A DNA stretch of 64,000 nucleotides from Pelobacter seleniigenes DSM 18267 (lineage in GTDB: Bacteria > Desulfobacterota > Desulfuromonadia > Desulfuromonadales > Geopsychrobacteraceae). The notes below the pieces were generated by a model. That model was not told the DNA's origin. It worked only from the letters and a program-made list of their open reading frames with translations, and did not search any database. Below are positions 36,610-62,508 of the stretch, piece by piece. Made by a program: the position numbers and the translations under genes. Position 1 is the stretch's first letter. Every line of letters begins with the position of its first letter. The DNA is taken from the NCBI RefSeq assembly GCF_000711225.1, contig NZ_JOMG01000002.1:2368501-2432500 (forward strand). Direction: 5' to 3'.

Positions 36610-38286
36610 ATGTCGATTGAGGTCATTCAGCAGCAGATCAGGCGTTTCCTGGCCAGCGAAGCGCCCGAAGTCATGTCGATCAAAGGGGCCTGGGGGGTCG
36701 GTAAGACCTATGCCTGGAACACCTATCTGCTCCAGGCGAAAAATCAGCAGAAGGTCGCCTTACACAAGTACTCCTACGTTTCCCTGTTCGGGATCAACAG
36801 CCTGAGCGACTTGAAATTTTCCATTTTTGAAAACCTGGTCGAAGAAAAAATGATCGGTCGCAAACCGACCATCGAAACATTTCGAAACAATGCCGACGCA
36901 TTAGCGCGCAGTATTGGGCAGAATGTCCTCCCCCTTATCCCCGCCCGACGGACCCCGGAAGCCTACCACAACATCTTCTCTTCTCTGCTGTTTCTTTCCT
37001 TGGAAAAAGCGCTTATCTGTATCGATGATTTTGAACGCAAGGGGCACGGTATTGCCGCGCAGGATATCCTGGGGCTGATCAGCCAGCTGAAAGAACAAAA
37101 AAAATGCAAGGTTATTCTGATTCTCAATGACGAAAGCTTAAGCGGCGACTCTTCCCTCGACTATGTCAAGCTGCGCGAAAAAGTGATCGATACCGAGCTG
37201 CGTTTTGCGCCGACCGCCAGAGAGTGTGTCGCCATCGCCCTGACCCGGGATCGGGTGGCCAGGCTATTGGGGGATGACATCGTCACGCTCGGCATCAACA
37301 ATATCCGTGTTATCAAAAAGATCGAAAAACTGGCGTTGACCGTCATTCCTGTCCTGAAGGATTACGAGGAGCAGGTCCTTAAGCGAGCCCTGCATTCCCT
37401 GGCCCTGCTGGCCTGGTGTTATTACAGTCGGGCACAGGATATTCCGGATTATCAGTTTGTGCTCGGCCGGAACAGCAGCTTCAGCGACCTTGACGATACC
37501 GCCTTGACTACCCAGCAGCAGAGCTGGTGCGCCGTCTTACGCCGTTACGATAATTATTCCTTCGACGATTTTGATGCCCCGATGGCCCGCTTCGTGGAAA
37601 ACGGTTACCTCGATGAAGCCTGGTTGCGGAAGGAGGCGGAGGTCTTTAACGAAAAGTTACGGGCCGACCGGTCGCAAAGTTCCTTTCAGGCGGCCTGGCG
37701 CAAATTTAATGAGTCCTTTGCAGACAACAGCCGCGAGGTGATCGGCTGTCTTTCCGAAAGTTTCAAAGACAACGCCAGGTTTATCAGCCCGGCCAACCTG
37801 GACGGTGCGGTCCGCCTGTTGCGCAATCTGGGCAAGGATGCCCTGGCGACCAGGATCATTGATCTGTATATCGAAAAAAGAAAAGCGGAGGTGGAACTGT
37901 TCAATCTCGATTCCAGATTGTGGGCGGGAGCGATCAAAGACGCCGAGGTGATCACCAAGTTCGAGCAGACTTTCCAGGCCCGCAAAGGACTCCGTTCGCT
38001 GGAGGAGACCTGCCGCCTCCTGCTGGCCGGAGAGGCCCCTGCCGATGAGGATGAAGCGCTGCTGGCGCAGGGTTCGGTGGCCGAATATGTGGCGCTGTTC
38101 AAAAAGCTCAAGGAACCGGAGTTGTCGCGGATCATCGACCTTTGCCTGCAATTCAGTCGGCTTGGTGGCACCACCGCCTGTCAGGAGGCGATTGCCGACC
38201 GCGCCGCCGAGGCGCTTCGCCGGATCGGTCGTGAGAATAAGCTCAACGCCAGTCGGGTTTTGCGTTTCGGCATCAAAGTCGATTAA
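36610..38286 (+). CDS. Orphan P-loop NTPase, KAP/STAND-like, unknown function
   Basis: A 558-residue soluble protein. Walker A is GAWGVGKT (26-33), Walker B is ALICIDDFERK (134-143, D139/D140), and a sensor strand follows, KVILILNDES (N173). The D-D-x-E/D-R form and the YVSLFGINSLSDLK segment fit KAP or STAND-like NTPases. There are no membrane helices, unlike classical KAP proteins. Residues 220-558 are all-helical without recognisable repeats and could be a sensor or effector. Similar lone NTPases occur in defence islands, but no partner gene is adjacent here. The start follows GAGG. Confidence 0.75.
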   Translation: MSIEVIQQQIRRFLASEAPEVMSIKGAWGVGKTYAWNTYLLQAKNQQKVALHKYSYVSLFGINSLSDLKFSIFENLVEEKMIGRKPTIETFRNNADALARSIGQNVLPLIPARRTPEAYHNIFSSLLFLSLEKALICIDDFERKGHGIAAQDILGLISQLKEQKKCKVILILNDESLSGDSSLDYVKLREKVIDTELRFAPTARECVAIALTRDRVARLLGDDIVTLGINNIRVIKKIEKLALTVIPVLKDYEEQVLKRALHSLALLAWCYYSRAQDIPDYQFVLGRNSSFSDLDDTALTTQQQSWCAVLRRYDNYSFDDFDAPMARFVENGYLDEAWLRKEAEVFNEKLRADRSQSSFQAAWRKFNESFADNSREVIGCLSESFKDNARFISPANLDGAVRLLRNLGKDALATRIIDLYIEKRKAEVELFNLDSRLWAGAIKDAEVITKFEQTFQARKGLRSLEETCRLLLAGEAPADEDEALLAQGSVAEYVALFKKLKEPELSRIIDLCLQFSRLGGTTACQEAIADRAAEALRRIGRENKLNASRVLRFGIKVD

Positions 38287-38454: not shown

Positions 38455-40566
38455 ATGAAAATTAAACTGAGAAATGTCTTGCTGCTGACGGTTGTCCCGT
38501 TGGCGGTCTTCCTGCTGCTGTTCTGGGTCATCTATGCGACGACCAGGACCATTGCGGAAGAAACGATCCTTGATCACCAGCGTAATATCGTTGCCCATGC
38601 CGCGGCCACGACCGACATGTGGCTGCAGTTGCAAAAAAAGGTCATGCGTTCGGTTATCGAGGAAATCGACCGGATCGATAGCCATGATAACGCAGCGGTC
38701 CTCAGGGTTCTGGAACAGGCGCTCAAGGCCGGCGAGTTCAGTGATGTTTATCTCGGCCTGGATGACGGGACCATGATCGACGGTGCCGGCTGGCTTCCCC
38801 CGACCGGGTATGATCCGCGCAATCGTCCCTGGTATCTCCATGGCATGGTCAATAGCGAAATCTCGCTATCGTCGCCCTACGTTGACATGACGACCGGGCA
38901 GATGGTGATTGCCATGACCTCGCCGTTGTTGCGAAACGGCCAGCTGTACGGCGTGGTCAGTGGGGATATCATCCTCGATTCCCTGGTCAATAATGTCATT
39001 AATTTGAAAGTCGGTGATAAAGGGTACTCTTTTATTATCTCCGCCAATGGAACCATTGTCGTTCACCCCGACCAGAGCCTGCTGATGACTCATAAACTGC
39101 AGGATCTCGATGGCAGCCTGAAGGGGGTCATTGCCGCGTTCCAGCGCAATGCCCAGGGGACCTACAAATATTTCCTGCATGGTAAGGAGAACATCCTCGC
39201 CTACCAGTTTCTCGACGATGTCGATTGGTATCTCTGCACCACGATGAGCACGGCGGAAGCCTATGCACTGTCGGGGAAAACCTCAATGCTGTCGGCCATG
39301 GAAGCCGTGTTGAAGCTGCTCGGGGTGTTCGCCGGAATCGCCTTGCTCGGAGTCGGCGGCAGCGCCCTGGGGCTGCTGTTTTTCAATAAGCGCTTTCAGT
39401 TCACCGTCAAGCAGCATCAGGATGTGATCAACGGCATGAACGAGGACCTGAAGTGGAATATCACCCGCAGAAAGGCCATTGAAACCCATTACCAGACCCT
39501 CTTTCACGTCGCCAATGATGCGATCATGGTCAGCAAGGGGACGGTTTTTGTCGAATGCAACGAGCGGGCCCGGGAGATGCTGGGGGCCAGGGAGTACGGC
39601 ATCATCGGTAACAACATGCTCGATATATCACCGGCTTACCAGGCCGATGGCAAGAGCAGCTACCAGCATCTGCAAAAAATCATCGATGCCGCCGGGTTGG
39701 GAAAACAGCAGTTCTTCCAGTGGACGTTTTTGCGCAGTAACGGCTCGGAGTTCCCCGCCGAAGTCAGTCTCAAAAAACTCCATCTGAACAACGAGCAGCT
39801 GATCCTGATGAGTATCCGCGATATCTCCAAGCGCGCCACTGCCGAGCAACAGCTGCGCCAGGCTCAGAAAATGGCGGCCATGGGGGAGATGCTCGGGGCT
39901 ATCGCTCATCAGTGGCGGCAGCCTTTGAACACCCTCTCGACCTATGTCTCCAGTTTGCAGTCGGCTTTTTACAATCAGCTGATCAACCGCGAATTTGTCG
40001 ACAAGCTGGTGCAGAATGCTGATACCCAGATCCAGTTCATGTCGAAAACCATCGATGACTTTCGCCAGTTTTTCAAACCGTCCAAGACCAAGGAGCGTTT
40101 TTCCCTGATCAAGTCGGTGGAGAATGCCATCAAGCTGGTCGAGCCGAGTTTTCGCCAGACCGATGTCGCCATTCGCGTACAGCAACCGCAGGCGGTCGAG
40201 GATTTTCTTGTTTACGGCTATCAGAGCGAATTCAGTCACGTTATCGTGAATATCCTTTCCAACGCCAAGGATGCCGTGAATGGCGCGGGGGCGAGCGACG
40301 ACAAACTCATTGAAATCGCTTTCGAGGTGGATGAGGAAAATGTTAAGGTCACGATCAGCGACAGCGGTCCCGGGATTCCCGAACCTATTCTCGGGCAGAT
40401 TTTTACCCCCTATTTCACCACCAAGGGGACCGCGTCCGGAACCGGCCTTGGCCTCTACATGGCCAAGGTTATTGTTGAAAATGAAATGAACGGACGCCTG
40501 GTCGCCGAGAATTGTCGGACCGGAGCCCGTTTCACCATCCTGCTGCCGAAGGCCGAAACCGTCTGA
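38455..40566 (+). CDS. dCache-PAS sensor histidine kinase with amino-acid-binding motif
   Basis: A 703-residue membrane kinase. TM1 (about 8-30), a dCache_1 periplasmic domain (32-280), TM2 (about 285-312), a PAS domain (about 340-460), H box MLGAIAHQWRQPLNTLSTY and an ATPase domain with GTGLGLYMAKVIVE. In the sensor Y119, R124, W126, Y127 and D171 match the residues and spacing of the amino-acid motif of PctA (Y121, R126, W128, Y129, D173, recalled from the literature). This predicts binding of an amino acid or amine. The HQWRQPLN box is the HisKA subtype often paired with NtrC-type regulators. The regulator follows 29 bp downstream. Confidence 0.93.
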   Translation: MKIKLRNVLLLTVVPLAVFLLLFWVIYATTRTIAEETILDHQRNIVAHAAATTDMWLQLQKKVMRSVIEEIDRIDSHDNAAVLRVLEQALKAGEFSDVYLGLDDGTMIDGAGWLPPTGYDPRNRPWYLHGMVNSEISLSSPYVDMTTGQMVIAMTSPLLRNGQLYGVVSGDIILDSLVNNVINLKVGDKGYSFIISANGTIVVHPDQSLLMTHKLQDLDGSLKGVIAAFQRNAQGTYKYFLHGKENILAYQFLDDVDWYLCTTMSTAEAYALSGKTSMLSAMEAVLKLLGVFAGIALLGVGGSALGLLFFNKRFQFTVKQHQDVINGMNEDLKWNITRRKAIETHYQTLFHVANDAIMVSKGTVFVECNERAREMLGAREYGIIGNNMLDISPAYQADGKSSYQHLQKIIDAAGLGKQQFFQWTFLRSNGSEFPAEVSLKKLHLNNEQLILMSIRDISKRATAEQQLRQAQKMAAMGEMLGAIAHQWRQPLNTLSTYVSSLQSAFYNQLINREFVDKLVQNADTQIQFMSKTIDDFRQFFKPSKTKERFSLIKSVENAIKLVEPSFRQTDVAIRVQQPQAVEDFLVYGYQSEFSHVIVNILSNAKDAVNGAGASDDKLIEIAFEVDEENVKVTISDSGPGIPEPILGQIFTPYFTTKGTASGTGLGLYMAKVIVENEMNGRLVAENCRTGARFTILLPKAETV

Positions 40567-40595
40567 CTAACGGCTTTAATAATGAGGGACCGCCG

Positions 40596-42020
40596 ATGTT
40601 TGATTTCAAGAACGGCCAGCCGACTATTCTGCTGGTGGATGACGAACCGGACGAACTCGAAGCGTACCGTTTTTTGCTGCTGTCCATGGGATTGCAGAAG
40701 GTCGAGACCCTGCAGGACAGCCGCCAGGTCATGGCGCGGCTGCCGCAGCTTGATCAGCCGATCGTGTTTCTCGATCTGAACATGCCGCACAAATCAGGCC
40801 TTGAGCTGCTGGGCGAGATCAAGGACGCCCTGCCTCAGGTGCCGGTGGTGATCTGTACCGCCAACTCGGAGATCGAAACCGCCGTTGAATGTCTTCGCCG
40901 GGGGGCTCACGATTATCTGGTTAAACCGATCAACGCCAACTCCTTCGGGTCGGCGTTGCGCAGCGCTGCGGAGATTCAGGCCCTGCGCTCCGAGGTTTTC
41001 GCCTTGAAAGGGATTGGCCTGGGCGGGGACCTTAAACAGCCCGAGGCTTTTCGTTCCATTGTCACCGGCAACTCGCAGATGCTCAACATGTTCAGGTATC
41101 TGGAAGCGATTGCCGGGACCGGCCAACCGCTGCTGATCCTTGGGGAGACCGGGACCGGCAAGGAACTGGTCGCCCGGGCGGTGCACCAGGCCAGCGGGCT
41201 GGCCGGCGAGTTCGTCGCCGTGGATGTCTCGGGGCTGGACGATATGCTGTTTTCCGACGCCCTGTTCGGCCATGTCCGAGGCGCTTACACCGGCGCCGAC
41301 AACCTGCGGCCGGGGTTGATCGAAAAGGCAAAAGGCGGAACCCTCTTTCTGGATGAAATCGGCGATCTCGGGGAAGCATCGCAGGTCAAGCTGCTGCGCC
41401 TGCTGCAGGAAAAAACCTATTATCCACTGGGTTCGGATACGCCCAAGCACAGTGCCGCCCGGATCATCGCGGCGGCCAATAAAAGTCAGCCGGCGCTGGC
41501 CGGCGGGGAGGAAGGTTTCCGGCAGGATCTCTATTATCGCCTCAGCACCCATCTGGTCAAACTTGCGCCGCTGCGGGAGCGCCGTGAAGATATTGCGTTG
41601 CTGGCCGAAACCATGATTCGGGAAGCCGCCGTCAGTATGGGGCGGGATATTCCGCAGCTCAGCCCGCAGGCGCTCCGGCTGCTGCAGGCCCATGATTTTC
41701 CCGGCAACATCAGGGAGCTGAAGACCTATCTGTTCGACAGCGTTGCCCGTGCTTTTACCGGGGAGATCACCCCGGAACTGATCAGTGAACGACTGCACGG
41801 GATAGCCCCCGCCGTAGCGCGGACGAGTGGGGAAGCACAGGGTCTCGAAGCCCTGTTCGGTTATTTTCCCACCCTGGATCAGCTCGGCGAATTTGCCGTT
41901 GACAGCGCGTTGCAGCGAACCGGCTTCAATCAGAGTCAGGCCGCCCGATTGCTGGGGATTTCCAAGCAGGCTCTTCACAAACGGCTGAAAAAAAGGGAAC
42001 AGGGGACCGCCCCTTCCTGA
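40596..42020 (+). CDS. Sigma-54-dependent NtrC-type response regulator
   Basis: A 474-residue activator. The receiver has VFLDLNMPHKSG and YLVKPI; the AAA+ domain has LGETGTGKE and TLFLDEIGD. The sigma-54 contact loop reads GAYTGA rather than GAFTGA; Tyr occurs naturally in some activators. The C-terminal helix-turn-helix is SQAARLLGISKQALHKRLKK. ATG 40596 follows GAGGG. It forms a pair with the dCache kinase and lies just before two sigma-54 promoters, its probable targets. Confidence 0.95.
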   Translation: MFDFKNGQPTILLVDDEPDELEAYRFLLLSMGLQKVETLQDSRQVMARLPQLDQPIVFLDLNMPHKSGLELLGEIKDALPQVPVVICTANSEIETAVECLRRGAHDYLVKPINANSFGSALRSAAEIQALRSEVFALKGIGLGGDLKQPEAFRSIVTGNSQMLNMFRYLEAIAGTGQPLLILGETGTGKELVARAVHQASGLAGEFVAVDVSGLDDMLFSDALFGHVRGAYTGADNLRPGLIEKAKGGTLFLDEIGDLGEASQVKLLRLLQEKTYYPLGSDTPKHSAARIIAAANKSQPALAGGEEGFRQDLYYRLSTHLVKLAPLRERREDIALLAETMIREAAVSMGRDIPQLSPQALRLLQAHDFPGNIRELKTYLFDSVARAFTGEITPELISERLHGIAPAVARTSGEAQGLEALFGYFPTLDQLGEFAVDSALQRTGFNQSQAARLLGISKQALHKRLKKREQGTAPS

Positions 42021-42051
42021 ACCATGACCTTTTGGTCCGGCTGCATTTCTC

Positions 42052-42090
42052 GTCAACCATTCGCGTCAACCATTGTCCCCGTGGTCAACC
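42052..42090 (+). promoter_or_regulatory. Upstream activator site cluster (GTCAACC x3)
   Basis: GTCAACC occurs at 42052-42058, 42065-42071 and 42084-42090, about 65-100 bp upstream of the -24/-12 promoter of the aldehyde dehydrogenase gene. The same heptamer forms a palindrome upstream of gabT. Likely binding sites of the adjacent NtrC-type regulator. Confidence 0.6.
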
Positions 42091-42152
42091 TAGGGGAACC
42101 GTTTTTCCAACTGTTTTGCCCTGTTTCGCCCCGCTCCGCTCGAATTCTGATC

Positions 42153-42168
42153 TGGCATTGCATTTGCT
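42153..42168 (+). promoter_or_regulatory. Sigma-54 promoter of the aldehyde dehydrogenase gene
   Basis: TGGCATTGCATTTGCT has GG (42154-42155) and GC (42166-42167) exactly 10 bases apart and is nearly identical to consensus TGGCAC-N5-TTGCW. The gene starts about 95 bp downstream. Confidence 0.8.
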
Positions 42169-42261
42169 GTTCCCCGCTGAAACATTTTTTCGTAACCCAG
42201 CGTTGTCGCCAACCGCACCCCGCGCTTGGCGACAGGCCCTTATTTCAGCGGGAGGAAGACT

Positions 42262-43689
42262 ATGGCAACAGCTTACCGGACCTATATCAACGGCGAATGG
42301 CTCGACACCGGCAGGTCCCTGGAGGTCCACAATAAATTCAGCGGCGCAGTGTTCGCAACGGTGGCGACGGTCGATGCCGCCCAGACCGCAGCCGCCATTG
42401 ACGCGGCGGCCGCGGCGTTTGCGACCTTTCGTAAATATCCGGCCCACCGGCGGGCGCAGATCCTCGAGCGGACCGCGGAACTGATCCTGGAGCGGGGGGA
42501 GGAGATCGCCGCGATCATCTGCCAGGAAGCGGGCAAGGCCTGGAAATTCTCCATGAACGAAGTCCAGCGCAGCGCCGAAACCTTTAAATTCGCAGCCGAG
42601 GAGGCCAAGCGCCTGCACGGCGAGACCATTCCGGTCGATGCCAGTTGTTTCGGCGAGAATCGGGTCGGCTATTTCATCAAGGAGCCGATCGGAGTGATCG
42701 GGGCGATTACCCCCTTCAATTTCCCCCTCAACCTGGTCGCCCACAAGGTTGCTCCGGCCATTGCCGCCGGTAACACGGTGGTGCTCAAACCCGCCTCCAG
42801 TACCCCGATTTCGTCCATCATCCTGGCCGAGATCATGGCCCTGGCCGGGCTGCCCAAAGGGGTCCTCAATGTGACCGTCGGCTCCGGCGGTACGGTCGGC
42901 GACGCCATCGTGCTCAATCCCAAGTGCAAGAAAATCACCTTTACCGGCTCCCCGGGAGTCGGCGAACAGATCATGAAAAAGGCCGGCATCAAAAAGGTCA
43001 CCCTGGAGCTGGGGAACAACTCGGCGACCCTGATCGAAGCCGACGCCGACCTTGAAAAAGCTGCCGCCCGCTGCGTGGTCAGCGCCTTTTCCAACTCCGG
43101 GCAGGTCTGTATCTCCCTGCAGCGGATCTACGTCAACCGGGCTTGCCTGGAACGCTTCACGGAACTGTTTCTTGCCAAGGTCAAGCAGCTCAAAGTCGGA
43201 GACCCCCTCGATCGGGACTGCGATGTCGGGCCGATGATCGACGCCGGTGAACTTGCGCGCATCGACGGCTGGGTAAAGGAAGCTGTCGCCCAGGGCGCGG
43301 TGCTGGCCTGCGGCGGCCAGGCGGACGGTATGGTCTATCCGCCGACGGTGCTCACCAATGTCACTGAAGAGATGAAAGTCATGTGTCTGGAGACTTTCGC
43401 TCCGGTGGTCTCCATCGTCCCCTATGACGATTTTACGACCGCCCTGGAGTGCGTCAATTCCTCGGATTTCGGGCTCCAGGCCGGGGTGTATACCAACGAC
43501 ATCAACAAGGCCCTGCAGGCGGTTGACGATCTTGATGTCGGCGGGGTCATGATCAACGACACCGCCACCTTCCGGGTTGACCACCTGCCGTACGGCGGCA
43601 ACAAGCTGTCCGGTCTCGGGCGCGAGGGGGTGCGGTTTGCCTTGGAGGATATGACCAACATCAAGATGGTAATGATCAATCGAAACTGA
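42262..43689 (+). CDS. NAD(P)-dependent aldehyde dehydrogenase
   Basis: 475 residues. It oxidises an aldehyde to the acid. Catalytic C283 in SGQVCISLQRIYV, general base E249 in TLELGNNS, N153 in PFNFPLNL and K176 in VLKPASSTP are all in place. ELGNN in place of the common ELGGN and the overall pattern resemble lactaldehyde/succinate-semialdehyde-type enzymes of anaerobes. The start follows GGAGG. Between a sigma-54 promoter and a terminator it is its own unit. Next to a GabT-type aminotransferase it probably oxidises the resulting semialdehyde. Confidence 0.9.
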   Translation: MATAYRTYINGEWLDTGRSLEVHNKFSGAVFATVATVDAAQTAAAIDAAAAAFATFRKYPAHRRAQILERTAELILERGEEIAAIICQEAGKAWKFSMNEVQRSAETFKFAAEEAKRLHGETIPVDASCFGENRVGYFIKEPIGVIGAITPFNFPLNLVAHKVAPAIAAGNTVVLKPASSTPISSIILAEIMALAGLPKGVLNVTVGSGGTVGDAIVLNPKCKKITFTGSPGVGEQIMKKAGIKKVTLELGNNSATLIEADADLEKAAARCVVSAFSNSGQVCISLQRIYVNRACLERFTELFLAKVKQLKVGDPLDRDCDVGPMIDAGELARIDGWVKEAVAQGAVLACGGQADGMVYPPTVLTNVTEEMKVMCLETFAPVVSIVPYDDFTTALECVNSSDFGLQAGVYTNDINKALQAVDDLDVGGVMINDTATFRVDHLPYGGNKLSGLGREGVRFALEDMTNIKMVMINRN

Positions 43690-43751
43690 TGATTGCGGCC
43701 TTTTCGTGGTCAAGCCAGAAGGGAGCTAATTTAAGCAACTCTGCAGTAAAC

Positions 43752-43870
43752 TCGGGACTGTCCCCAGGGTCATCGGGGGCTGTCCCAAGAGTTTGCGAGC
43801 CATGGAACTGTAGCGGTTAGCACCGCAAAGCCCTGGGACAGCCCCCGGGCAGGGCCAGTCCCAGGGCTTT
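43752..43870. repeat. Palindromic dispersed repeat element, copy B
   Basis: Two outer arms built from GGGACTGTCCCC...GGGGGCTGTCCC and CTGGGACAGCCCCC...CCAGTCCCAGG flank a central GTTTGCGAGCCATGGAACTG and TAGCGGTTAGCACCGCAAAG. The centre is the reverse complement of the 4.1-kb copy with about two mismatches over 56 bp. Here there are no flanking direct repeats of the 73-bp type. Confidence 0.78.
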
Positions 43871-43911
43871 GCTGCTATCGACTCTTACCCTAGCGCCATT
43901 CTGATCAAGCC

Positions 43912-43938
43912 CCGGGTTTTACCGCCCGGTTTTTTTTT
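43912..43938 (+). terminator. Rho-independent terminator of the aldehyde dehydrogenase gene
   Basis: CCGGG (43912-43916) pairs with CCCGG (43925-43929) and is followed by nine T residues. Confidence 0.85.
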
Positions 43939-43977
43939 GCCGCAGGGGATCAACCAGGACTGACGAGCGCGTCTCCA

Positions 43978-43993
43978 GTCAACCCAGGTTGAC
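43978..43993 (+). promoter_or_regulatory. Activator-site palindrome upstream of gabT
   Basis: GTCAACC-CA-GGTTGAC is a perfect inverted repeat, 80 bp before the -24 element. A TCAACC half-site lies nearby at 43950-43955. The heptamer is the one repeated three times upstream of the aldehyde dehydrogenase promoter. Confidence 0.65.
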
Positions 43994-44071
43994 GGAGGCA
44001 ACAGGGGGATGAGTGCGTGGGGTACGCTTAAGTCCCTGGAAAACAGGCAAATATCACTCGCTTGTCGGAGC

Positions 44072-44087
44072 TGGCACAGGGGTTGCT
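44072..44087 (+). promoter_or_regulatory. Sigma-54 promoter of the gabT-liv operon
   Basis: TGGCACAGGGGTTGCT matches consensus TGGCAC-N5-TTGCW at every scored base, with GG (44073-44074) and GC (44085-44086) 10 apart. Transcription should start near 44098, about 42 bp before gabT. Confidence 0.88.
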
Positions 44088-44139
44088 CTTAAGGTGGGTC
44101 CAGCAACCCAACCAGTCCCTGACGTGGAGGATAAAAGAG

Positions 44140-45483
44140 ATGTTGAACAGCACCGAACTGGCAGAAGTCAAACATGCGCCGAGCGAACGGAGCAAAGCCC
44201 TGCTCCAGGAAAAATCAACCTATGTGGCTGCCGGCATCACCCATGCCGCGCCAATTTTTATCAAGGAAGCCAAAGGGGCGGTGATCGAGGATATCGACGG
44301 CAACCGCTACCTGGACTTTTATACCGGCATCGGCGTCACCACGGCCGGGCATTGCCCGGCACCGGTGGTCGCGGCGATCAAGGAGCAGGCCGACCGGCTG
44401 TTGCACTCCTGTTTCATGGTGAGCATGTACGAACCCTACGTCCAACTGGCCAAAAAGCTCACCGAAATCACCCCGGGCAGCCATCAGAAAAAAGCCATGT
44501 TCGTCAACAGCGGGGCCGAGGCGGTGGAGAACGCCATCAAGATCGCCCGGGCCTATACCGGCCGTCAGGGCGTGATCTGCTTCGAGTCCGGTTTTCACGG
44601 CCGCACTCTGCTGACCATGTCCCTGACCAGCAAAGTCAAGCCTTACAAACACGGCTTCGGCCCCTATGCCCCGGAAATCTACAAGGTGCCGTTCCCCAAC
44701 CTGTATCGCAGCCAGCTGCACACCACGCAGGAAGAAAGCTGCCAGGCTTATCTCGATTACTTCGAGCGCTTTTTCATCGCCGAGGTCGATCCGTCTCATA
44801 TCGCCGCCATCATCCTCGAACCGGTCCAGGGGGAAGGCGGGTTCAACATCCCGCCGCAGGGTTACTGGCAGGGGTTGCGGAAGATCTGTGACAAACACGG
44901 CATCGTGCTGATCGCCGACGAAGTCCAGACCGGTTTCACCCGGACTGGCAAGATGTTCGCGGTGGAGCACTTTGACGTGGTGCCGGACCTGATGACAGTC
45001 GCCAAGTCGATTGCTTCCGGCATGCCCCTGTCCGCAGTGGTCGGCCGCAGCGAGATCATGGACGCCCCCGGCGCCGGGCAGATCGGCGGCACCTATGGCG
45101 GTAACCCGGTGGCTTGCGCCGCCGCCCTGGCCACCATCGAGCTGCTGGAACGCGACAACCTGGCTGACAAGGCCATGGCACTGGGGGAGACCGTGGTCAC
45201 CCGGTTGCGGCAATTGCAGAAAAAATACCCCCGTATCGGGGATGTCAGAAATCTCGGGGCAATGATCGCCCTTGAGTTCGTCACCGACCCGCAGAGCCGG
45301 GAACCGGATAAAGCCACCGCCAGCGCCGTGATTGCCGAATGCGTCAAGCATGGCCTGCTGGTGATCGGTGCCGGTATCTACGGCAACGTACTCCGGTTGC
45401 TGCCGCCCCTGGTGGTGAGTGACGAACAGCTAGCGCAGGCGCTGCAGATTATTGAGGACGCCGTCGACGTCGTTCTGGGTTAG
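44140..45483 (+). CDS. gabT: GabT-type omega-amino acid:2-oxoglutarate aminotransferase
   Basis: A 447-residue class III PLP aminotransferase. AMFVNSGAEAVENAIKIAR, FHGRTLL, VLIADEVQTGFTRTGKMFA and the PLP-lysine segment TVAKSIASGMPLSAVVG are the 4-aminobutyrate aminotransferase motifs. It should move the amino group of GABA, 5-aminovalerate or beta-alanine to 2-oxoglutarate, leaving a semialdehyde for the neighbouring dehydrogenase. The ATG at 44140 follows GGAGG. It is the first gene after a sigma-54 promoter and leads into the Liv transporter genes, 110 bp downstream. Confidence 0.93.
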   Translation: MLNSTELAEVKHAPSERSKALLQEKSTYVAAGITHAAPIFIKEAKGAVIEDIDGNRYLDFYTGIGVTTAGHCPAPVVAAIKEQADRLLHSCFMVSMYEPYVQLAKKLTEITPGSHQKKAMFVNSGAEAVENAIKIARAYTGRQGVICFESGFHGRTLLTMSLTSKVKPYKHGFGPYAPEIYKVPFPNLYRSQLHTTQEESCQAYLDYFERFFIAEVDPSHIAAIILEPVQGEGGFNIPPQGYWQGLRKICDKHGIVLIADEVQTGFTRTGKMFAVEHFDVVPDLMTVAKSIASGMPLSAVVGRSEIMDAPGAGQIGGTYGGNPVACAAALATIELLERDNLADKAMALGETVVTRLRQLQKKYPRIGDVRNLGAMIALEFVTDPQSREPDKATASAVIAECVKHGLLVIGAGIYGNVLRLLPPLVVSDEQLAQALQIIEDAVDVVLG

Positions 45484-45593
45484 GTATCCGGAGGCGAGTC
45501 AGGATCGCTTCAGGACAGGCGTAGAGAGATCGGGAGCGTTTATCAGCGCCCTGATCAAACCACCAATCAATTCGCATGGAAAAAGGAGACCCT

Positions 45594-46829
45594 ATGAAGA
45601 TCGACAGAAAAATCATGCCCCTGCTGCTGACGGTGTTGCTGGTTGCGTTTCTGGGCACCGCCACGGCGGCCGAAACCATCCGTATCGGCAATATCATCCC
45701 CCTCTCCGGGCCCTCGGCCTCGGTCGGTATTCAGGGGAAAAAGGCCCGTGAGATGGCGGTGGCCGAAATCAATGAAGCGGGCGGCATCAAAGCCCTGGGC
45801 GGCGCCAAGCTGGAACTCGACTTTGCCGATAGCAAAAGCGACCCGACCACCGGCGTGACCGAGGCCGAGCGGCTGATCAACAACGACAAGGTGGATCTGC
45901 TGACCGGTTGCTGGAACTCGGCGGTAACCTATCCGACCACCCAGGTCGCCGAGCGCTACGGCATCCCCTTTATCGTCCCGGTTTCGGTGCGTGACACCAT
46001 CACCGAGCGCGGCTTCAAGAACGTCTTTCGGATTGCGGCTAAGGATTCCTGGTGGGCGCGGGATCAGTTCAGTTTCCTGGCTGATATGGAAAAGGAATTC
46101 GGCACCTCGGTCAAGAAGGTCGCTTTTGTCTACGAGAACGGCGACTGGGGGACCGGTTTTGCCGAGCAGTGGCGGACCCTGGCGGAAAAAGCCGGTTACC
46201 AGGTGGTGCTGGACGAAGCCTATCCGAGCACCGCTTCGGATCTGACCCCGGTGGTCATCAAGCTTAAACGCGCCAAGCCGGATGTGGTGTTCATGACCTC
46301 CAACGCGGCTGACGCCATCCTGCTGACCAACACCATGGCGGAAATGAAGGTTAACGTGAAAGCCATCATTACCAGCGGTGGCGGCCATGCCGATCCGTCC
46401 TTTCTGGAAGCGGCCGGTCAGAATGCCGATTACATTTTCGATATCGTCGAATGGGAAGCCGACCTCAACCGGATCGGTCTGAAAGAGACCAATGCCAAGT
46501 TCAAATCCCTCTATGGTCACAATCTGACCGGTGAGGCGGTTGACGCCTATGCCGCCATGTATGTCATCAAGGACGCCCTGGAAAAAGCCGGCTCCACCGA
46601 CCCGGCCGCCCTGCGCAAAGCGTTGAGCGAAAACAAATTCTGTGACGGCAACCTGCAGATGTTGGCCTATGACTGCGTCGATTTCGACAGCACCGGCCAG
46701 AATAAAAACGCCAATCTGGTCATTGTGCAGATCCGCAAAACCGATCACGGCATGGACCGCATCACCGTCTGGCCAAAATCGGTGCGCCGGGCCGGCTACA
46801 CCCCGGTTTTCCCGCAGCCGGCCAAGTAA
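45594..46829 (+). CDS. Liv-type ABC transporter substrate-binding protein
   Basis: 411 residues with a signal peptide cleaved after VAFLGTATAA. The mature part begins ETIRIGNIIPLSGPSASVGIQGKKAREMAVAEINEAGG, the type I periplasmic-binding fold of the branched-chain/aliphatic amino acid family (LivJ-like). It delivers substrate to the LivHMGF complex encoded next. Given gabT, the ligand may be an omega-amino acid rather than leucine. ATG 45594 follows AAAGGAG. Confidence 0.93.
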   Translation: MKIDRKIMPLLLTVLLVAFLGTATAAETIRIGNIIPLSGPSASVGIQGKKAREMAVAEINEAGGIKALGGAKLELDFADSKSDPTTGVTEAERLINNDKVDLLTGCWNSAVTYPTTQVAERYGIPFIVPVSVRDTITERGFKNVFRIAAKDSWWARDQFSFLADMEKEFGTSVKKVAFVYENGDWGTGFAEQWRTLAEKAGYQVVLDEAYPSTASDLTPVVIKLKRAKPDVVFMTSNAADAILLTNTMAEMKVNVKAIITSGGGHADPSFLEAAGQNADYIFDIVEWEADLNRIGLKETNAKFKSLYGHNLTGEAVDAYAAMYVIKDALEKAGSTDPAALRKALSENKFCDGNLQMLAYDCVDFDSTGQNKNANLVIVQIRKTDHGMDRITVWPKSVRRAGYTPVFPQPAK

Positions 46830-46899
46830 TTGTTGAACCGCAACGCAGCTGCAGAAGGGACCGCGCTTTCTGCAGCTGCGCAAGATCAGGAGAAAACCA

Positions 46900-47784
46900 A
46901 TGATCGGCTATGTCGAATCCCTGCTTAACGGAATCCTGATGGGTTCAATTTACGGCCTGACCGCCGTCGGCCTGACACTGATTTTCGGGGTCATGAAGGT
47001 GGTCAACTTTGCCCATGGCTCCATCCTGATGGTGGGGATGTTTGCCGCGTATTTCTTTGTCACTTTGACCGGCGTCAACCCGTACCTGGCGTTGCCCGTG
47101 GTGGTGCCGCTGCTGTTTGTGTTCGGTTTCGCCATGCAGAAATTCATCATCAAGCCGATTTTCGAGGCGGAAAAGGATGTTCGTGAGCCGATCACGGTCA
47201 TTATCGTCACCACCGGGATCTGGTATGTCCTCGATAACCTCGCCCTGCTCCTGTTCGGTGCCCAGTTCCGCGTTGCCAAGACCTCGGTGACCGGGAAAAT
47301 GCTGGAGATTTTCGACATGTATTTTCTCTGGCCCAAGATCATCGGCGCCGGCATTACTCTGCTGCTCGGTCTTTACCTGTACTGGTTCCTCAAATATTCG
47401 CGGATGGGCAAGGCCGTTCGTGCCACCTCTCTGGATCGCGAGGCCGCGACCCTGATGGGGATCAAGCAGAATCGTATTTACAATATTGTCTTCGGCCTCG
47501 GTTGCGCCTGTTGCGGCGTTGCCGCCTGCGTGCTGGTGCCCTTTTACTATGTCTATCCGACGGTCGGGGTGCCCTTCGACATCAAGGCCTTCATCATTGT
47601 TGTGCTCGGCGGGCTTGGCAGTATTCCCGGTGCCATCCTCGGCGGGATCATTCTCGGAGTCATCGAGACCCTGGGCGCCCAGTTCATGGCGGCCACCTGG
47701 ACCGAAATGCTCATCTATGTCTTTTTCCTTCTGGTTCTGTTTGTCAAGCCGTCAGGACTGTTTGGATTGAAACAGGACTATTAA
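46900..47784 (+). CDS. livH: Liv-type ABC transporter permease LivH
   Basis: 294 residues with about eight membrane helices. IYGLTAVGLTLIFGVMKVVNFAHGSILMVG at the N-terminus and GGLGSIPGAILGGIILGVIETLG near the C-terminus are the LivH signatures. First membrane subunit of the importer; it lies 70 bp after the binding-protein gene and 12 bp before livM. The start has AGGAG. Confidence 0.95.
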   Translation: MIGYVESLLNGILMGSIYGLTAVGLTLIFGVMKVVNFAHGSILMVGMFAAYFFVTLTGVNPYLALPVVVPLLFVFGFAMQKFIIKPIFEAEKDVREPITVIIVTTGIWYVLDNLALLLFGAQFRVAKTSVTGKMLEIFDMYFLWPKIIGAGITLLLGLYLYWFLKYSRMGKAVRATSLDREAATLMGIKQNRIYNIVFGLGCACCGVAACVLVPFYYVYPTVGVPFDIKAFIIVVLGGLGSIPGAILGGIILGVIETLGAQFMAATWTEMLIYVFFLLVLFVKPSGLFGLKQDY

Positions 47785-47796
47785 GGGGACGTACCA

Positions 47797-48849
47797 ATGA
47801 AACTGCTTACAGACCAGTCACCATTCCATAAAATAGCGACCCTGCTGATTATCGCCGGCCTGCTGGCCCTGCCGCTGGTGGTCAGTAATCCGTCGGTGAT
47901 GCAGATCTTTATCCTGATCATCTTTTACGCCTACCTGACCTCATGCTGGAACTTTGTCGGCGGGTTTGCCGGGGTGCTGCCGTTGGGGCACTCGGCCTTT
48001 GTCGGGATCGGCGCCTACACTTCGACCACCCTCTACCTGACCTATGGGGTCAGCCCCTGGTTCGGTATGCTGGTCGGCGGGGTGCTGGCGGCGATCATGG
48101 GGATTCTCATCGGTCTGCCGACTCTCAAGTTGCGCGGCGCCTACTTTGCCCTGGCGACCATCGCCTTTGGTGAAGCGACTCGGGTGCTGGTGGAAAACGT
48201 CGAGAAGATCGGGCCTTTCGAAATCCGCGGGCCGAAAGGGTTGCTCATCAACCTGGCCGGCAATTCCCTGGCGGATTTTCAGTTTTCGAGCAAAGCACCC
48301 TATTACTACATTATTCTGTTCATGCTGCTGCTGGTGCTGTTACTGACCTTCGTCATGATGAATTCCAAGGTCGGCTACTACCTGGCCGCCGGTGGCGAAG
48401 AGCCGGAAGCGGCCGAGGCCTTGGGGATCAAGGTGTCCAAATACAAACTGATCGCCATGGCGATCAGCTGCTTCCTGACCGCCCTGGGCGGAACCTTTTA
48501 CGCCCAACTGGTGCTGTACTTTTATCCCAAATCGATCCTCGGTCTCGATCTGTCCTATGAAATTGCCTTCATCGCTCTGATCGGCGGGCGTGGCACCATT
48601 CTTGGGCCGATCCTCGGCGCGTTGCTGCTGCGCCCGGTCGGGGAACTGACCCGGATCTATCTGTCCGATTCCCTGCCCGGGCTGCATCTGATTATCTTCG
48701 GACTGGTGCTGATCATTGTCATGCGCTATCAGCCCAAAGGCCTGGTGGAGCCGGTGTCACGTTGGTTCAACCGGCTGGCGAGGCGGGTTGACCAGGGGGA
48801 CAACAATCGCAAGCAAGAGGAGGACTGTCATGGCGTTGCTGACAGTTGA
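47797..48849 (+). CDS. livM: Liv-type ABC transporter permease LivM
   Basis: 350 residues with about nine membrane helices. GFAGVLPLGHSAFVGIGAYTS and ALIGGRGTILGPILGALLLRPVGE are LivM motifs. Second membrane subunit. The last 20 bp overlap livG, which implies coupled translation. Confidence 0.95.
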   Translation: MKLLTDQSPFHKIATLLIIAGLLALPLVVSNPSVMQIFILIIFYAYLTSCWNFVGGFAGVLPLGHSAFVGIGAYTSTTLYLTYGVSPWFGMLVGGVLAAIMGILIGLPTLKLRGAYFALATIAFGEATRVLVENVEKIGPFEIRGPKGLLINLAGNSLADFQFSSKAPYYYIILFMLLLVLLLTFVMMNSKVGYYLAAGGEEPEAAEALGIKVSKYKLIAMAISCFLTALGGTFYAQLVLYFYPKSILGLDLSYEIAFIALIGGRGTILGPILGALLLRPVGELTRIYLSDSLPGLHLIIFGLVLIIVMRYQPKGLVEPVSRWFNRLARRVDQGDNNRKQEEDCHGVADS

Positions 48850-49561
48850 AAAAGTGGTCAAACAGTTCGGCGGGCTGACCGCGGTCAATGCCGTCGACAT
48901 GTGCGTGGAAAAAAATCAAATCGTCGGGGTGATCGGACCCAACGGGGCCGGCAAAACCACCCTGTTCAACTGCATCGCCGGGGCTTTTCCGCTGACCAGC
49001 GGCAGCATCCTTTTTGAAGGGCAGGAGATGGCCGGCAAGAAACCCTATGAGATCTGTCAGCTGGGTATTACCCGGACCTTTCAGGTGGTGAAACCCTTTG
49101 CCTCGAAAACAGTACTCTATAACACCATGGTCGGTGCCTTCGCCAATACCAATGTTCTGGGCGAAGCCCGCTCCAAAGCGTTGGAGGTGCTGAAAATTCT
49201 TGATCTGTATGAAAAAAAGGATGTGGTTTCCAAAAACCTGACCCTTCCCGAACGGAAACGCCTGGAACTGGCCCGGGCTCTGGCCACCGAGCCGAAATTG
49301 CTGCTCCTTGATGAAGTCATGGCCGGGCTGCGGCCGTCGGAAGTGACCGAAATGCTGCCGGTGATCCGGCGCATCAACCAGGTCGGGGTCAGCATCATCA
49401 TTGTCGAGCACATCATGCAGGCGATCATGAATCTGTCCGAGCGGGTCTATGTCATCAACTTCGGCAAGAAGATCGCCGAAGGCACCCCCCATGAGGTCCT
49501 CGCCGATGCGGAGGTTGTCAAAGCATACCTTGGAGAGCAATATGTCGTTGATCAACATTAA
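48830..49561 (+). CDS. livG: Liv-type ABC transporter ATPase LivG
   Basis: 243 residues. Walker A is GPNGAGKTT, Walker B LLLLDEVMAGL, with the Q-loop in GITRTFQVV. The signature region reads LTLPERKRLELARAL, so the usual LSGGQ serine-glycine core is altered to LPERKR; LivG proteins commonly carry LSYGQQ-type variants, but this one lacks the glycines. ATG 48830 follows AGGAGG inside the end of livM. It overlaps livF by 20 bp. Confidence 0.94.
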   Translation: MALLTVEKVVKQFGGLTAVNAVDMCVEKNQIVGVIGPNGAGKTTLFNCIAGAFPLTSGSILFEGQEMAGKKPYEICQLGITRTFQVVKPFASKTVLYNTMVGAFANTNVLGEARSKALEVLKILDLYEKKDVVSKNLTLPERKRLELARALATEPKLLLLDEVMAGLRPSEVTEMLPVIRRINQVGVSIIIVEHIMQAIMNLSERVYVINFGKKIAEGTPHEVLADAEVVKAYLGEQYVVDQH

Positions 49562-50255
49562 CAATATCAGTGTCGGCTATGGCGAAATCCAGGTGCTGTT
49601 CGATGTTTCGCTGGAGGTGCGGGAAGGGGAGATCCTGAGTATTGTCGGTGCCAACGGCGCCGGTAAGTCGACCCTGCTCAAAACCATCTCCGGGCTGCTG
49701 ACTCCAAGCCAAGGGGAAATTGTTTTTGCCGGGGAGACGATTTCGCGCCAACCCGCTGACGAGATCGTTGGAAAAGGGCTGATTCATGTCCCGGAAGGAC
49801 GGCGCCTGTTTTCGCTGATGACCGTGCTGGAGAATCTGGAACTCGGTGCCTTCAGCCCCAACGCCCGCCACCGCTTTGAGCAGAACCTGACAGAGGTCTA
49901 TGCCCTGTTTCCCCGCCTGGCCGAACGGAAAACCCAGTTGGCCGGGACCCTGTCCGGGGGGGAACAGCAGATGGTCGCCATCGGCCGGGGGATCATGGCC
50001 CAACCGAAGGTGATGATGCTCGACGAACCTTCCCTGGGCTTGGCACCGGTGTTGAAAAAAGATATTTTCGCGGCCATCAGGAAGATCGCCAGGGAATACG
50101 GGGTCACCATAATCCTGGTGGAGCAGGATCTGATCAACTCCATGGCGATCAGCGATCGGGCTTACGTGATGGAGCAGGGGCAAATTGTCCTTGAAGGGAG
50201 CAGCGGTGATCTGCTCAATGATCCCCATGTCAAGGCGGCCTATCTGGGCGTCTGA
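49542..50255 (+). CDS. livF: Liv-type ABC transporter ATPase LivF
   Basis: 237 residues. Walker A GANGAGKST, signature LSGGEQQMVAIGRGI and Walker B VMMLDEPSLGLAP are complete. It is the second ATPase of the importer and has an intact signature, so it can compensate the atypical one in LivG. ATG 49542 follows GGAGAG within the end of livG. No strong terminator was seen downstream. Confidence 0.95.
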   Translation: MSLININNISVGYGEIQVLFDVSLEVREGEILSIVGANGAGKSTLLKTISGLLTPSQGEIVFAGETISRQPADEIVGKGLIHVPEGRRLFSLMTVLENLELGAFSPNARHRFEQNLTEVYALFPRLAERKTQLAGTLSGGEQQMVAIGRGIMAQPKVMMLDEPSLGLAPVLKKDIFAAIRKIAREYGVTIILVEQDLINSMAISDRAYVMEQGQIVLEGSSGDLLNDPHVKAAYLGV

Positions 50256-50548: not shown

Positions 50549-51664
50549 ATGAAAGCAGCCGCGTTTCTGACTTTGATCGTAGGGGCGGTGAGCCTGTTTC
50601 TGCTGCCTTCATGTGAGCGGAAGGAGCCGATCAAGATCGGTTTTATCGGGGGGCTTTCCGGCCGGGTTGCCGATTTGGGTGTCGGTGGCCGCAACGGCGT
50701 TCAACTGGCGGTGGAGAAGGTCAATGCGGGAGGAGGTATTGGCGGCAGATTGATTGAGCTGGTGGTGAAAGATGATCAGCAGAATCCAGCGACGGCGAGG
50801 CAGGCTGTCACCGATTTGCTCGACCAAAAGGTCGAACTGATCATCGGCCCGATGACCAGCGCCATGGCCATGGCGGTCTTGCCGCAGATAAACAAGGCCC
50901 GGACAGTCCTGCTCAGCCCCACGGTGACCACGACGGAGCTGTTCGGGATCGATGATTTTTTTGTGCGGGTGACCGCCACCACCCGGGAGTATGCCGCGAA
51001 AAGTGCCCGCTACCAGTTTCAGCAGCGAGGGGCCAAGACGGTCGCGGCCATTTATGACCGCAGCAATCTTGCTTACACGGCAAGCTGGCTGGACGATTTT
51101 CGGACGACGTTTGAAGGCCTGGGCGGCAAGCTGGTCGATATCCGGCCCTTTGACTCGGGGCAGGACACGGTTTTTTTACCGTTGGCGAAGGATCTGGTGA
51201 CTGCTAACGCCGATCTGGTGCTGATTATCGCCAATGCCATGGATGCCGCGCTGATCTGCCAGCAGGTGAATAAGCTCGCTCCTGGCCAGAAAATCGCCAT
51301 GTCCGAGTGGGCTTCGACGGAACGTTTTATCGAACTGGCGGGCAAAGCTTCCGAAGACGTTGTGGTTTCCCAATTCATGGATACCACGGATCGTTCCCAG
51401 GCCTTTATTGATTTTCAGGCCGCCTATCTTGAGCGTTTCCACCACCCGATCGGTTTTGCCGCCCTTGCCGGGTATGATGCTGCCCAGGTGGCCCTTGCCG
51501 CCATCAAAGCGCGTGCTGACGGGGAATCTTTAAAAGATACCATCTTGAGAAAAAGACGGTTTCAAGGGGTTCAGCAAGAGTTTGAAATTGATCGTTTCGG
51601 AGATTCAGAACGGAAAGTCATTATTTCCGTGATCCGTAATTATCACTTTGCCAAGCTGGAGTAG
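50549..51664 (+). CDS. Periplasmic binding lipoprotein, Liv family, partner of hybrid kinase
   Basis: 371 residues. An N-terminal hydrophobic segment ends FLLPSCERKE, a lipobox with the cysteine at residue 22, so it should be membrane anchored. KIGFIGGLSGRVADLGVGGRNGVQLAVEKVNAGGGIGGR is the Liv-type binding fold. There is no permease or ATPase after it; instead the hybrid kinase starts 3 bp after the stop. This suggests a sensory rather than transport job, like the LuxP/LuxQ or TorT/TorS pairs. Confidence 0.88.
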   Translation: MKAAAFLTLIVGAVSLFLLPSCERKEPIKIGFIGGLSGRVADLGVGGRNGVQLAVEKVNAGGGIGGRLIELVVKDDQQNPATARQAVTDLLDQKVELIIGPMTSAMAMAVLPQINKARTVLLSPTVTTTELFGIDDFFVRVTATTREYAAKSARYQFQQRGAKTVAAIYDRSNLAYTASWLDDFRTTFEGLGGKLVDIRPFDSGQDTVFLPLAKDLVTANADLVLIIANAMDAALICQQVNKLAPGQKIAMSEWASTERFIELAGKASEDVVVSQFMDTTDRSQAFIDFQAAYLERFHHPIGFAALAGYDAAQVALAAIKARADGESLKDTILRKRRFQGVQQEFEIDRFGDSERKVIISVIRNYHFAKLE

Positions 51665-51667
51665 CCG

Positions 51668-58745: not shown

Positions 58746-59234
58746 ATGACCGAACATGGACAAGACGGCTCGATAATCTCTGATCACGAACGCCCCAAAG
58801 GCGAGTATAAAATGATGCTGGTGCTGTTTATTATCAGCGCGGCATTGTTCGGTGATTCGTTATACAGCGAAGGATTTTTCCAGGGGGTGAGTGCAGGGCC
58901 GGGCAGTATCCCTCAGCTTGCCGGAGCGATGACTTTGCTGATGATTGCCGGGCTGGCCATCCAATTTTTCCGCAAAGGCTACAAGGAGGGGACTTTTGCT
59001 GATCTGATGCATCACCTGTTTGATCGCGAAGTCGTTATCCTGCTGGTAACCCTCACCATTTACGGCTTCATTGTCGAGACTATTCATTTTGTCCCCGCAA
59101 CATTTTTATTCCTCGTCGTCACCATGTATCTGCTTGAACCGAAGAAACTGCTGCTGAAAATCGTGGTTTCGGCCGGGGTTCTTGCTGTTCTGTATCTGAT
59201 ATTTTCAACTTTGTTCCAGGTCGTTCTGCCGTAA
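58746..59234 (+). CDS. tctB: Tripartite tricarboxylate transporter TctB
   Basis: 162 residues with four hydrophobic helices (MLVLFIISAALFGDSLY, AGAMTLLMIAGLAIQFF, VVILLVTLTIYGFIVET, TFLFLVVTMYLLE plus a C-terminal helix). This matches the small membrane subunit of tripartite tricarboxylate transporters. The start follows AAAGGATG. It is the first gene of the operon, 22 bp before tctA. Confidence 0.9.
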   Translation: MTEHGQDGSIISDHERPKGEYKMMLVLFIISAALFGDSLYSEGFFQGVSAGPGSIPQLAGAMTLLMIAGLAIQFFRKGYKEGTFADLMHHLFDREVVILLVTLTIYGFIVETIHFVPATFLFLVVTMYLLEPKKLLLKIVVSAGVLAVLYLIFSTLFQVVLP

Positions 59235-59256
59235 GCGTTACAGGAGGAACTGTATT

Positions 59257-60768: not shown

Positions 60769-60787
60769 CCTTATTTCAGGAGAACAT

Positions 60788-61363: not shown

Positions 61364-61435
61364 CCGTACCAATTAATGGACTAACTTGGTTGTTGCGTGT
61401 TTCATCGGGTGTTTTTTCATCAAAGGAGATCGAAC

Positions 61436-62440: not shown

Positions 62441-62474
62441 GGCTTAGTTAAGGTTTTTAGTTTCAGATTAAGAC

Positions 62475-62508
62475 ACAAAAGCGAGCGGTTGAAACCGCTC
62501 GCTTTTGT
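62475..62508. terminator. Bidirectional Rho-independent terminator
   Basis: ACAAAAGCGAGCGGTT / AACCGCTCGCTTTTGT forms a perfect stem around GA. It ends the tct operon and faces the convergent regulator gene. Confidence 0.93.

Follow-up and report, generated by a model that had tools for sequence, protein, structure and literature searches.

A histidine kinase with a PctA-type sensor domain beside gabT and liv genes in Pelobacter seleniigenes: a candidate circuit for omega-amino-acid use

Only a minority of sensor kinases have a known signal, and the question of what is sensed, and which genes respond, is raised again by a histidine kinase encoded at positions 38455..40566 (+ strand) of a 64,000-nucleotide stretch of Pelobacter seleniigenes DSM 18267 (contig NZ_JOMG01000002.1, 2,368,501 to 2,432,500), hereafter called the window. 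Here, the motif and fold of the sensor, the operon, the promoter and the regulator site point to one small ligand class. We propose, with a probability of roughly 0.55, that a PctA-type sensor acts in a circuit resembling AauSR and DctBD and controls the use of an omega-amino acid, probably gamma-aminobutyrate (GABA). Sequence and predicted fold show the type of sensor, its motif, the gene neighbourhood, the promoter elements, a palindrome and the co-occurrence of that palindrome with the kinase.

In the mechanism that we infer, the membrane-distal module of the periplasmic dCache domain would bind the free amino acid, its carboxylate being held by Y119, R124 and W126 and its amino group by Y142, D144 and D171. 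Binding would change the autophosphorylation of H485 and the transfer of phosphate to D60 in the neighbouring NtrC-type regulator, which would bind GTCAACC-N2-GGTTGAC sites, usually paired, and presumably activate, rather than repress, sigma-54 promoters before an aldehyde dehydrogenase gene and before gabT-livJHMGF. The products would import the omega-amino acid (most likely GABA, with 5-aminovalerate or beta-alanine as possibilities), transaminate it to the semialdehyde and then oxidise the latter to the diacid.

The sensor domain and its amino-acid site

The kinase reading frame lies where the original prediction had placed it, with an ATG at 38455 and a stop at 40566 (703 aa; there is a GTG two codons upstream). 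It encodes, in order, a transmembrane segment, dCache_1 (residues 34-262), a second transmembrane segment, PAS (345-458), HisKA (476-541, with H485) and HATPase_c (590-700). The dCache_1 sensor domain (38554..39240, +), of the PctA or dCache_1AA type, scores 81.2 bits against a Pfam cut-off of 45. Five of its residues had been predicted to coincide with the amino-acid site of PctA, and all of them (Y119, R124, W126, Y127 and D171) are present at the expected spacings of 5, 2, 1 and 44. Two additional published site residues match as well, Y142 and D144 corresponding to PctA Y144 and D146, and the numbers of all motif residues are offset by 2 from those of PctA. In an ungapped alignment to PctA, the motif codons span 38809..38967 (+), starting at 38809 (Y119), 38824 (R124), 38830 (W126), 38833 (Y127), 38878 (Y142), 38884 (D144) and 38965 (D171). 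The motif reads Y119-x4-R124-x-W126-Y127-x14-Y142-x28-D171, the first gap being x4 both here and in PctA itself, where the published motif prints xxx.

By sequence (phmmer), the best solved relative of the sensor is PctA (E = 1.3e-29, with no gap over the site), followed by PctC, a GABA receptor (3.9e-28), and PctB (4.5e-28), and a 16-sequence profile lifts the PctA match to 4.6e-39. The AlphaFold2 model of the sensor (mean pLDDT 86.3, pTM 0.79) has the Mlp24/PctA/PctB/CtaA group as its top structural matches, Foldseek placing Mlp24 first and PctA sixth. The comparison with PctA that the original prediction had called for yielded a matching predicted fold (5ltx_A; Z 26.3, rmsd 2.1 A over 239 residues, 31% identity in the VIA alignment); CtaA, Mlp24 and PctB fall within 1 Z unit of PctA and are thus tied with it by fold, and PctC with bound GABA (5ltv_A) gives Z 23.7 and rmsd 2.0 over 210 residues. 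Since PctA is the best sequence match and the fold agrees, the likeness is one of homology. DctB-type chains are named neither by sequence, nor by fold, nor by profile among the matches listed, kinship with them still being possible.

A chance motif was also considered. Of the genome's 25 dCache_1 places (24 reading frames, one of them with two places; the fetched part of each was scanned), one has the full published motif, namely that of the kinase, and shuffling the sensor region 10,000 times produced the motif 14 times; on these figures and the E value of the PctA match, chance was rejected. A near-miss sequence, L024 (YDPRKRQWY), fails the full motif. In PctA, Y121, R126 and W128 are described as bonding the ligand carboxylate, and in PctC, D149 and D176, which correspond to D144 and D171 of the kinase, as holding the amino group, that of GABA included (PMC6974571). 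By alignment to PctA and these contacts, the motif residues of the kinase would line the pocket. A PctA-type amino-acid site is therefore well supported, and the domain may be expected to bind such a ligand. Six dCache_1AA domains from gut bacteria have been run in thermal shift and three in calorimetry, all of them being considered amino-acid sensors by the authors (PMC11237719).

Among 16 aligned kinases, whose sensors are 36-46% identical to that of the window, the motif residues are invariant except for Y127, which is F in L040 and L051 (relatives are numbered L by locus and G by genome), and invariance at such identity implies that the motif is selected for. This bears on the idea that the distal pocket is a relic and that the kinase mainly answers another cue, for instance through its cytoplasmic PAS domain, which could carry a second input; given the invariance, we regard it as extremely improbable. 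An amine sensor of the dCache_1AM family, in which the motif arginine is unconserved and PctD has an insertion with R103/D133 (PMC10104139), was rejected, as R124 is present and invariant in 16/16 and the alignment to PctA has no gap over the site.

Genes and regulatory sites around the kinase

The kinase gene is followed, on the same + strand, by that of an NtrC-type response regulator (40596..42020) with a receiver (D60), a sigma-54 AAA+ domain carrying GAYTGA (residues 229-234) and a Fis-type helix-turn-helix. Next come an aldehyde dehydrogenase gene (PF00171; 42262..43689), whose product is a candidate semialdehyde dehydrogenase, gabT, for 4-aminobutyrate aminotransferase (44140..45483), and genes for a LivJ-type solute-binding protein (45594..46829), the permeases LivH (46900..47784) and LivM (47797..48849), and the ATPases LivG (48830..49561) and LivF (49542..50255, ATG at 49542). 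GabT is predicted to be a GABA aminotransferase by TIGR00700 (601 bits, cut-off 507, measured on 44143-45480), and this equivalog cut-off is passed by the window protein and by five scanned copies from relatives.

One scan of genome contigs yielded 15 related loci (36-45% identity), two of Seleniivibrio (Deferribacterota) and 13 on contigs labelled as Malonomonas, Desulfuromusa, Desulfuromonadales, Geobacteraceae, Desulfoprunum, Desulfopila, Desulfosediminicola, Desulfogranum, Desulfobacterales or uncultured delta proteobacterium. Whole-genome searches added L022 (G017) and L084 (G105), giving 17 loci besides the window; L040 is a contig of G030 and L045 one of G011. The sensor is found at E <= 1e-20 in 4 of the 44 genomes of its own family, its own included. 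In the class, a profile match at E <= 1e-25 occurs in 25 of 277 genomes, seven of which belong to the kinase clade (E below 1e-110); the 23 rows from the remaining 18 genomes are mostly chemoreceptor-like, as judged by eye from their tails.

A homologue of the window regulator directly follows the kinase in all 17 other loci, and the adjoining transporter is of the Liv type in 14 (counting L041 and L044, whose contigs end after LivJ) and of the TRAP type in three (L040, L047 and L052). In 11 of the 17, the flanking sequence that was fetched contains a gabT homologue (L038, L039, L042, L043, L045, L047, L050, L051, L052, L022 and L084). This gabT has an aldehyde:ferredoxin oxidoreductase gene beside it in L047, L051, L052 and L084 and a glutamate dehydrogenase gene in L043. 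GABA-type catabolism comprises transamination with 2-oxoglutarate, oxidation of the semialdehyde and regeneration of 2-oxoglutarate, and the enzymes encoded beside the kinase across the loci are the set expected for it. A taurine or sulfonate reading, based on a gene of 585-603 aa by gabT in three relatives, was rejected because this gene is that of the aldehyde:ferredoxin oxidoreductase.

In the two Seleniivibrio loci, L038 and L039, the window order (kinase-regulator-aldehyde dehydrogenase-gabT-livJHMG) is kept as far as the sequence reaches, with downstream genes 71-87% identical to those of the window. Moreover, in a tree of 18 kinases the window kinase groups with those of Seleniivibrio, a genus of another phylum, with support 100/99. 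The tree and the shared order hint at transfer between phyla. The cluster (38455-50255) shares order and kinase branch with L038/L039 and not with own-family relatives, and was likely transferred horizontally.

Another way of sensing was considered, in which the ligand-loaded LivJ-type protein, and not the free ligand, would activate the kinase by contact. Both genes are clustered here and in 14 of the 17 other loci. However, the direct-binding site is complete, three relatives have a TRAP binding protein in place of LivJ with the same kinase pocket, and in the AgtS/AruS test case no interaction between the sensor domain and the binding protein encoded nearby was seen (PMC11113362); we thus consider activation by contact very unlikely. 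The closest solved relatives of the window LivJ include the Liv-family proteins 3ip5-3ipa (4.2e-30), which we take to be Atu2422-type GABA-binding proteins, 8wch and 4n0q scoring better. The TRAP binding protein of L040 gave no close match of known structure that was informative (best 7.8e-27).

The regulator is expected to act through sigma-54, which is contacted by the GAYTGA loop. A -24/-12 element with one mismatch, TGGCATTGCATTTGCT (42153..42168, +), precedes the aldehyde dehydrogenase gene by 93 bases, and an exact one, TGGCACAGGGGTTGCT (44072..44087, +), precedes gabT by 52. The latter is the only exact TGGCACN5TTGCW match in the window (0.15 expected from shuffling, with at least one in 13 of 100 shuffles). 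Of 17 loci, window included, 14 have a site with at most one mismatch in the first gap downstream of the regulator (in L052, the gap before DctP), and L040, L048 and L050 have a two-mismatch site; L084, which is outside this set, has an exact one. When all 28 gaps are taken together, 17 have a site with at most one mismatch on the strand of the gene and none on the opposite strand. The three gabT-livJ gaps are without a site (5 mismatches), which would agree with transcription of liv together with gabT.

Other promoter-related observations concern the regulators. The site before the window kinase is weak (2 mismatches); in some relatives, sigma-54-type sites with at most one mismatch occur shortly before the kinase (L038:9945, L039:9945, L042:9934, L044:7986, L040:2005, L049:9843 and L050:9746), where autoregulation is possible. 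L022, L043, L047, L050, L051, L052 and L084 encode, close to gabT or to the cluster, a further sigma-54 regulator homologue of the PAS type, a possible second control layer, and L022, L043, L047 and L050 have a one-mismatch site by the gabT start. The regulator of L023 (a Desulfuromusa metagenome-assembled genome; same contig as L045) has GAYSSA, and those of the window, L021 and L022 have GAYTGA; the promoter of the L023 locus still has the -24/-12 element and the upstream site, with one mismatch each.

Upstream of the gabT promoter lies a perfect palindrome, GTCAACCCAGGTTGAC (43978..43993, +), which we propose as the enhancer site of the regulator. Its pattern, GTCAACC-N2-GGTTGAC, was read off this promoter and then sought in the relatives. 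In the 5.09-Mb genome it occurs at one place with at most one mismatch, 43978-43993. Before the aldehyde dehydrogenase gene there is a degenerate site of three GTCAACC half-sites (42052, 42065 and 42084; 42052..42090, +), the last two 19 bp apart. Copies with at most one mismatch are present in 14 of 20 gaps, the window's own included; L049 is added to these once the end of the regulator gene, where its copy sits, is counted. In 351,304 bases (the window and 16 loci), such copies are confined to these gaps, the L049 regulator end and a contig end (L040:9103). In 13 of 21 gaps, the two of the window not among them, a second copy (at most two mismatches) lies exactly 19 bp away.

The palindrome also follows the kinase across genomes. 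The exact sequence is found in 7 of the 277 class genomes, comprising 6 of the 7 kinase genomes and 1 of the 270 others (Fisher 8e-11, a test that is partly in-sample, as the own genome is included, all kinase genomes except G105 had already been used, and the genomes are related). The seventh kinase genome, G011, has only a one-mismatch copy, the exception among the others, G194, has the palindrome inside a gene that looks flagellar by eye, and a reversed-pattern control occurs in 3 of 277 genomes. G030, where the kinase-regulator pair adjoins a TRAP transporter, carries the exact palindrome at a contig end and again on another contig, where a pair 19 bp apart (one exact, one with two mismatches) precedes an operon of gabT, glutamate dehydrogenase and aldehyde:ferredoxin oxidoreductase genes. 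This gabT product is 61% identical to that of the window (TIGR00700 599 bits, cut-off 507). Since the contig was not chosen by gene content, it is the best independent support, at the level of sequence, that the regulon would concern GABA-type transamination. The original prediction had linked the kinase to the GabT, dehydrogenase and Liv genes, and this link now goes well beyond adjacency, being backed by the conserved neighbourhood, the sigma-54 promoters and the clade-specific palindrome.

A biotin (BirA) operator was considered as another identity for the palindrome. BirA operators of related bacteria have half-sites GTCAACC/GGTTGAC with N14-15 spacing (PMC545781). This identity was rejected because of the N2 spacing and because the exact palindrome is present in only 7 of 277 genomes; a third half-site in some arrays possibly mimics the BirA spacing.

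The ligand and the weight of the evidence

The ligand had been predicted to be GABA or 5-aminovalerate. The operon context fits, and by gene context the ligand is probably GABA; this was a guess from context only, and a basic amino acid would suit the side-chain part of the pocket as well. This part includes D97 (38743-38745) and D109 (38779-38781; together 38743..38781, +), which correspond to PctA F99 and M111. D97, D109, G110 and A111 are invariant in 19/19 rows of the kinase clade (some 17 different ones, L054 and L055 being apparent repeats of L044 and L042). None of the 23 nearest other sensors has either aspartate: position 97 is T, K or A in them, and position 109 mostly S, Y, F or W. 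The side chains of PctA ligands make contact with F99, Y101 and segment 109-118 (PMC6974571), and acidic residues at 97 and 109 would suit a second positive charge.

The same circuit could thus be tuned to a basic (diamino) amino acid, for example L-lysine, L-ornithine or L-arginine, the aminotransferase and dehydrogenase then serving that amino acid or its omega-amino-acid product. The alpha-amino site (Y119, R124, W126, Y142, D144 and D171) is kept in full and, as just described, the clade-invariant D97 and D109 stand where PctA meets ligand side chains. By contrast, no decarboxylase, monooxygenase or ornithine aminotransferase was seen among the scanned window genes by the kinase, the GabT of L022 scores 599 bits with the GABA-transaminase model and only 267 with that for ornithine, and D97 and D109 could have structural roles. 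On balance, we find a diamino ligand rather unlikely.

A further alternative is that a broad-range, PctA-like sensor reports the general supply of amino acids and that the operon is one of several uses of this signal. By sequence the sensor is closest, among solved proteins, to PctA, which has a broad ligand range (PMC6974571). Liv-type transporters, too, are often broad. Nevertheless, the proposed regulator site is nearly private to the cluster, as seen from its single place in the genome, the invariance of D97, D109, G110 and A111 suggests one conserved ligand, and the pocket stays the same across different types of transporter; a broad-range sensor is accordingly judged unlikely.

Several observations weigh against our own reading, in which the circuit serves omega-amino-acid use. 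The main tension with GABA comes from D97 and D109, invariant at side-chain contact positions; as the GABA amine occupies the alpha-amino site in PctC, GABA held in the same way needs neither. No gabT was seen in the fetched flanks of L040, L041, L044, L046, L048 and L049; the contigs of L041, L044 and L048 end close to the cluster, and in the genome of L040 gabT is found on another contig. The gabT copies with 45-52% identity may be of other subtypes. The aldehyde dehydrogenase falls below every equivalog cut-off in the best 25 models listed, among which NF040648 (lactaldehyde dehydrogenase) is best, with 524 of 650 bits, the succinate-semialdehyde dehydrogenase (SSADH) model giving 391 against a cut-off of 646. 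Regarding the DNA sites, the excess of one-mismatch sigma-54 elements in the window is weak (6 against an expected 2.5, with 6 attained in 5 of 100 shuffles), and a window-wide scan at two mismatches gave no excess (32 found, 37.6 expected). Because this excess is weak or absent, the argument rests on exact and one-mismatch sites at conserved places. The gabT gap of G030 has no sigma-54 site with at most one mismatch, and a two-mismatch one was found by eye. Palindromes in the aldehyde dehydrogenase gap of the window and in four Seleniivibrio gaps are degenerate, with three mismatches, 8 of 21 gaps have no second copy (at most two mismatches) at 19 bp, the half-sites recur in BirA operators, and the co-occurrence test is partly in-sample.

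More tentatively, and with somewhat less than an even chance in our estimation, the kinase would directly sense extracellular GABA or a close omega-amino acid through a dCache_1AA pocket re-tuned by D97 and D109. Through a sigma-54 regulator and a two-palindrome enhancer, it would run a regulon for GABA breakdown in anaerobes of the Desulfuromonadia, Desulfobulbales and Deferribacterota, distributed in part by transfer between phyla. If so, anaerobes would have a kinase that senses an amino acid directly, together with its regulon; the system would also offer a compact biosensor for GABA or omega-amino acids and a way to test what positions 97 and 109 contribute to the specificity of dCache_1AA domains.

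Flanking genes and comparison with known systems

Three other parts of the window deserve a brief description. Just upstream of the kinase (36610-38286) is a KAP-type P-loop NTPase gene (23.1 bits, cut-off 20). Directly downstream of the cluster (50549-54604), a second Liv-type binding protein gene (Peripla_BP_6) lies 3 bases before that of a hybrid kinase of 978 aa, which has a receiver, two PAS domains and a weak dCache match (44.7 bits against a cut-off of 45) and lacks the amino-acid motif; the two are possibly a binding-protein/kinase pair. Finally, 58746-63990 holds tripartite tricarboxylate transporter genes (TctA, PF01970) and, next to them on the opposite strand, the gene of a V4R-domain sigma-54 regulator.

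Regarding the sensor, PctA, PctB and PctC (GABA) of Pseudomonas aeruginosa, CtaA and Mlp24/Mlp37 share its fold and have the full motif at the PctA spacing; PctC, of the dCache_1AA family, binds GABA (PMC6974571). Two differences stand out. The PctA group consists of chemoreceptors, whereas here the dCache domain drives a histidine kinase, and in the side-chain pocket D97 and D109 replace F99 and M111.

Regarding the circuit, AauS-AauR and DctB-DctD (MifS-MifR) also combine a dCache kinase with a sigma-54 enhancer-binding regulator acting on a transporter gene, and for AauR two palindromic sites bound by the regulator lie upstream of a -12/-24 promoter (PMC7962211, PMC8694187). With its adjacent NtrC-type regulator and a transporter operon with a predicted sigma-54 promoter and upstream sites, the present system probably works like AauSR and DctBD; we claim likeness and not membership. 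The dCache domains of AauS and DctB have been assigned to the DctB carboxylate type (PMC8694187), while the present sensor best matches the PctA group, and the AauR site is TTCGG-N4-CCGAA instead of GTCAACC-N2-GGTTGAC. AgtS-AgtR of P. aeruginosa is likewise a two-component system encoded by a transporter, in that case for GABA/5-aminovalerate (PMC11113362). Its sensor domain is annotated SBP_bac_3, with no small-molecule ligand found for it, and its binding proteins are SBP_bac_8 (PMC11113362), in contrast to the dCache_1AA sensor and LivJ-type protein described here.

Our literature search returned no GABA-sensing kinase with sigma-54 and no regulator with this palindrome among the matches listed, the former being a weak negative since few subscription journals were covered. 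The original prediction had called kinases with this motif, wired to an amino-acid operon, little studied. This is only partly so: dCache_1AA domains in sensor kinases have been reported as a class (PMC9452764), and amino-acid transport run by two-component systems is known from AauSR and AgtSR. For these reasons, the combination is best seen as a variant and not as a new kind. The pocket and the type of circuit are known; what looks new is their combination, along with the DNA switch that goes with it.

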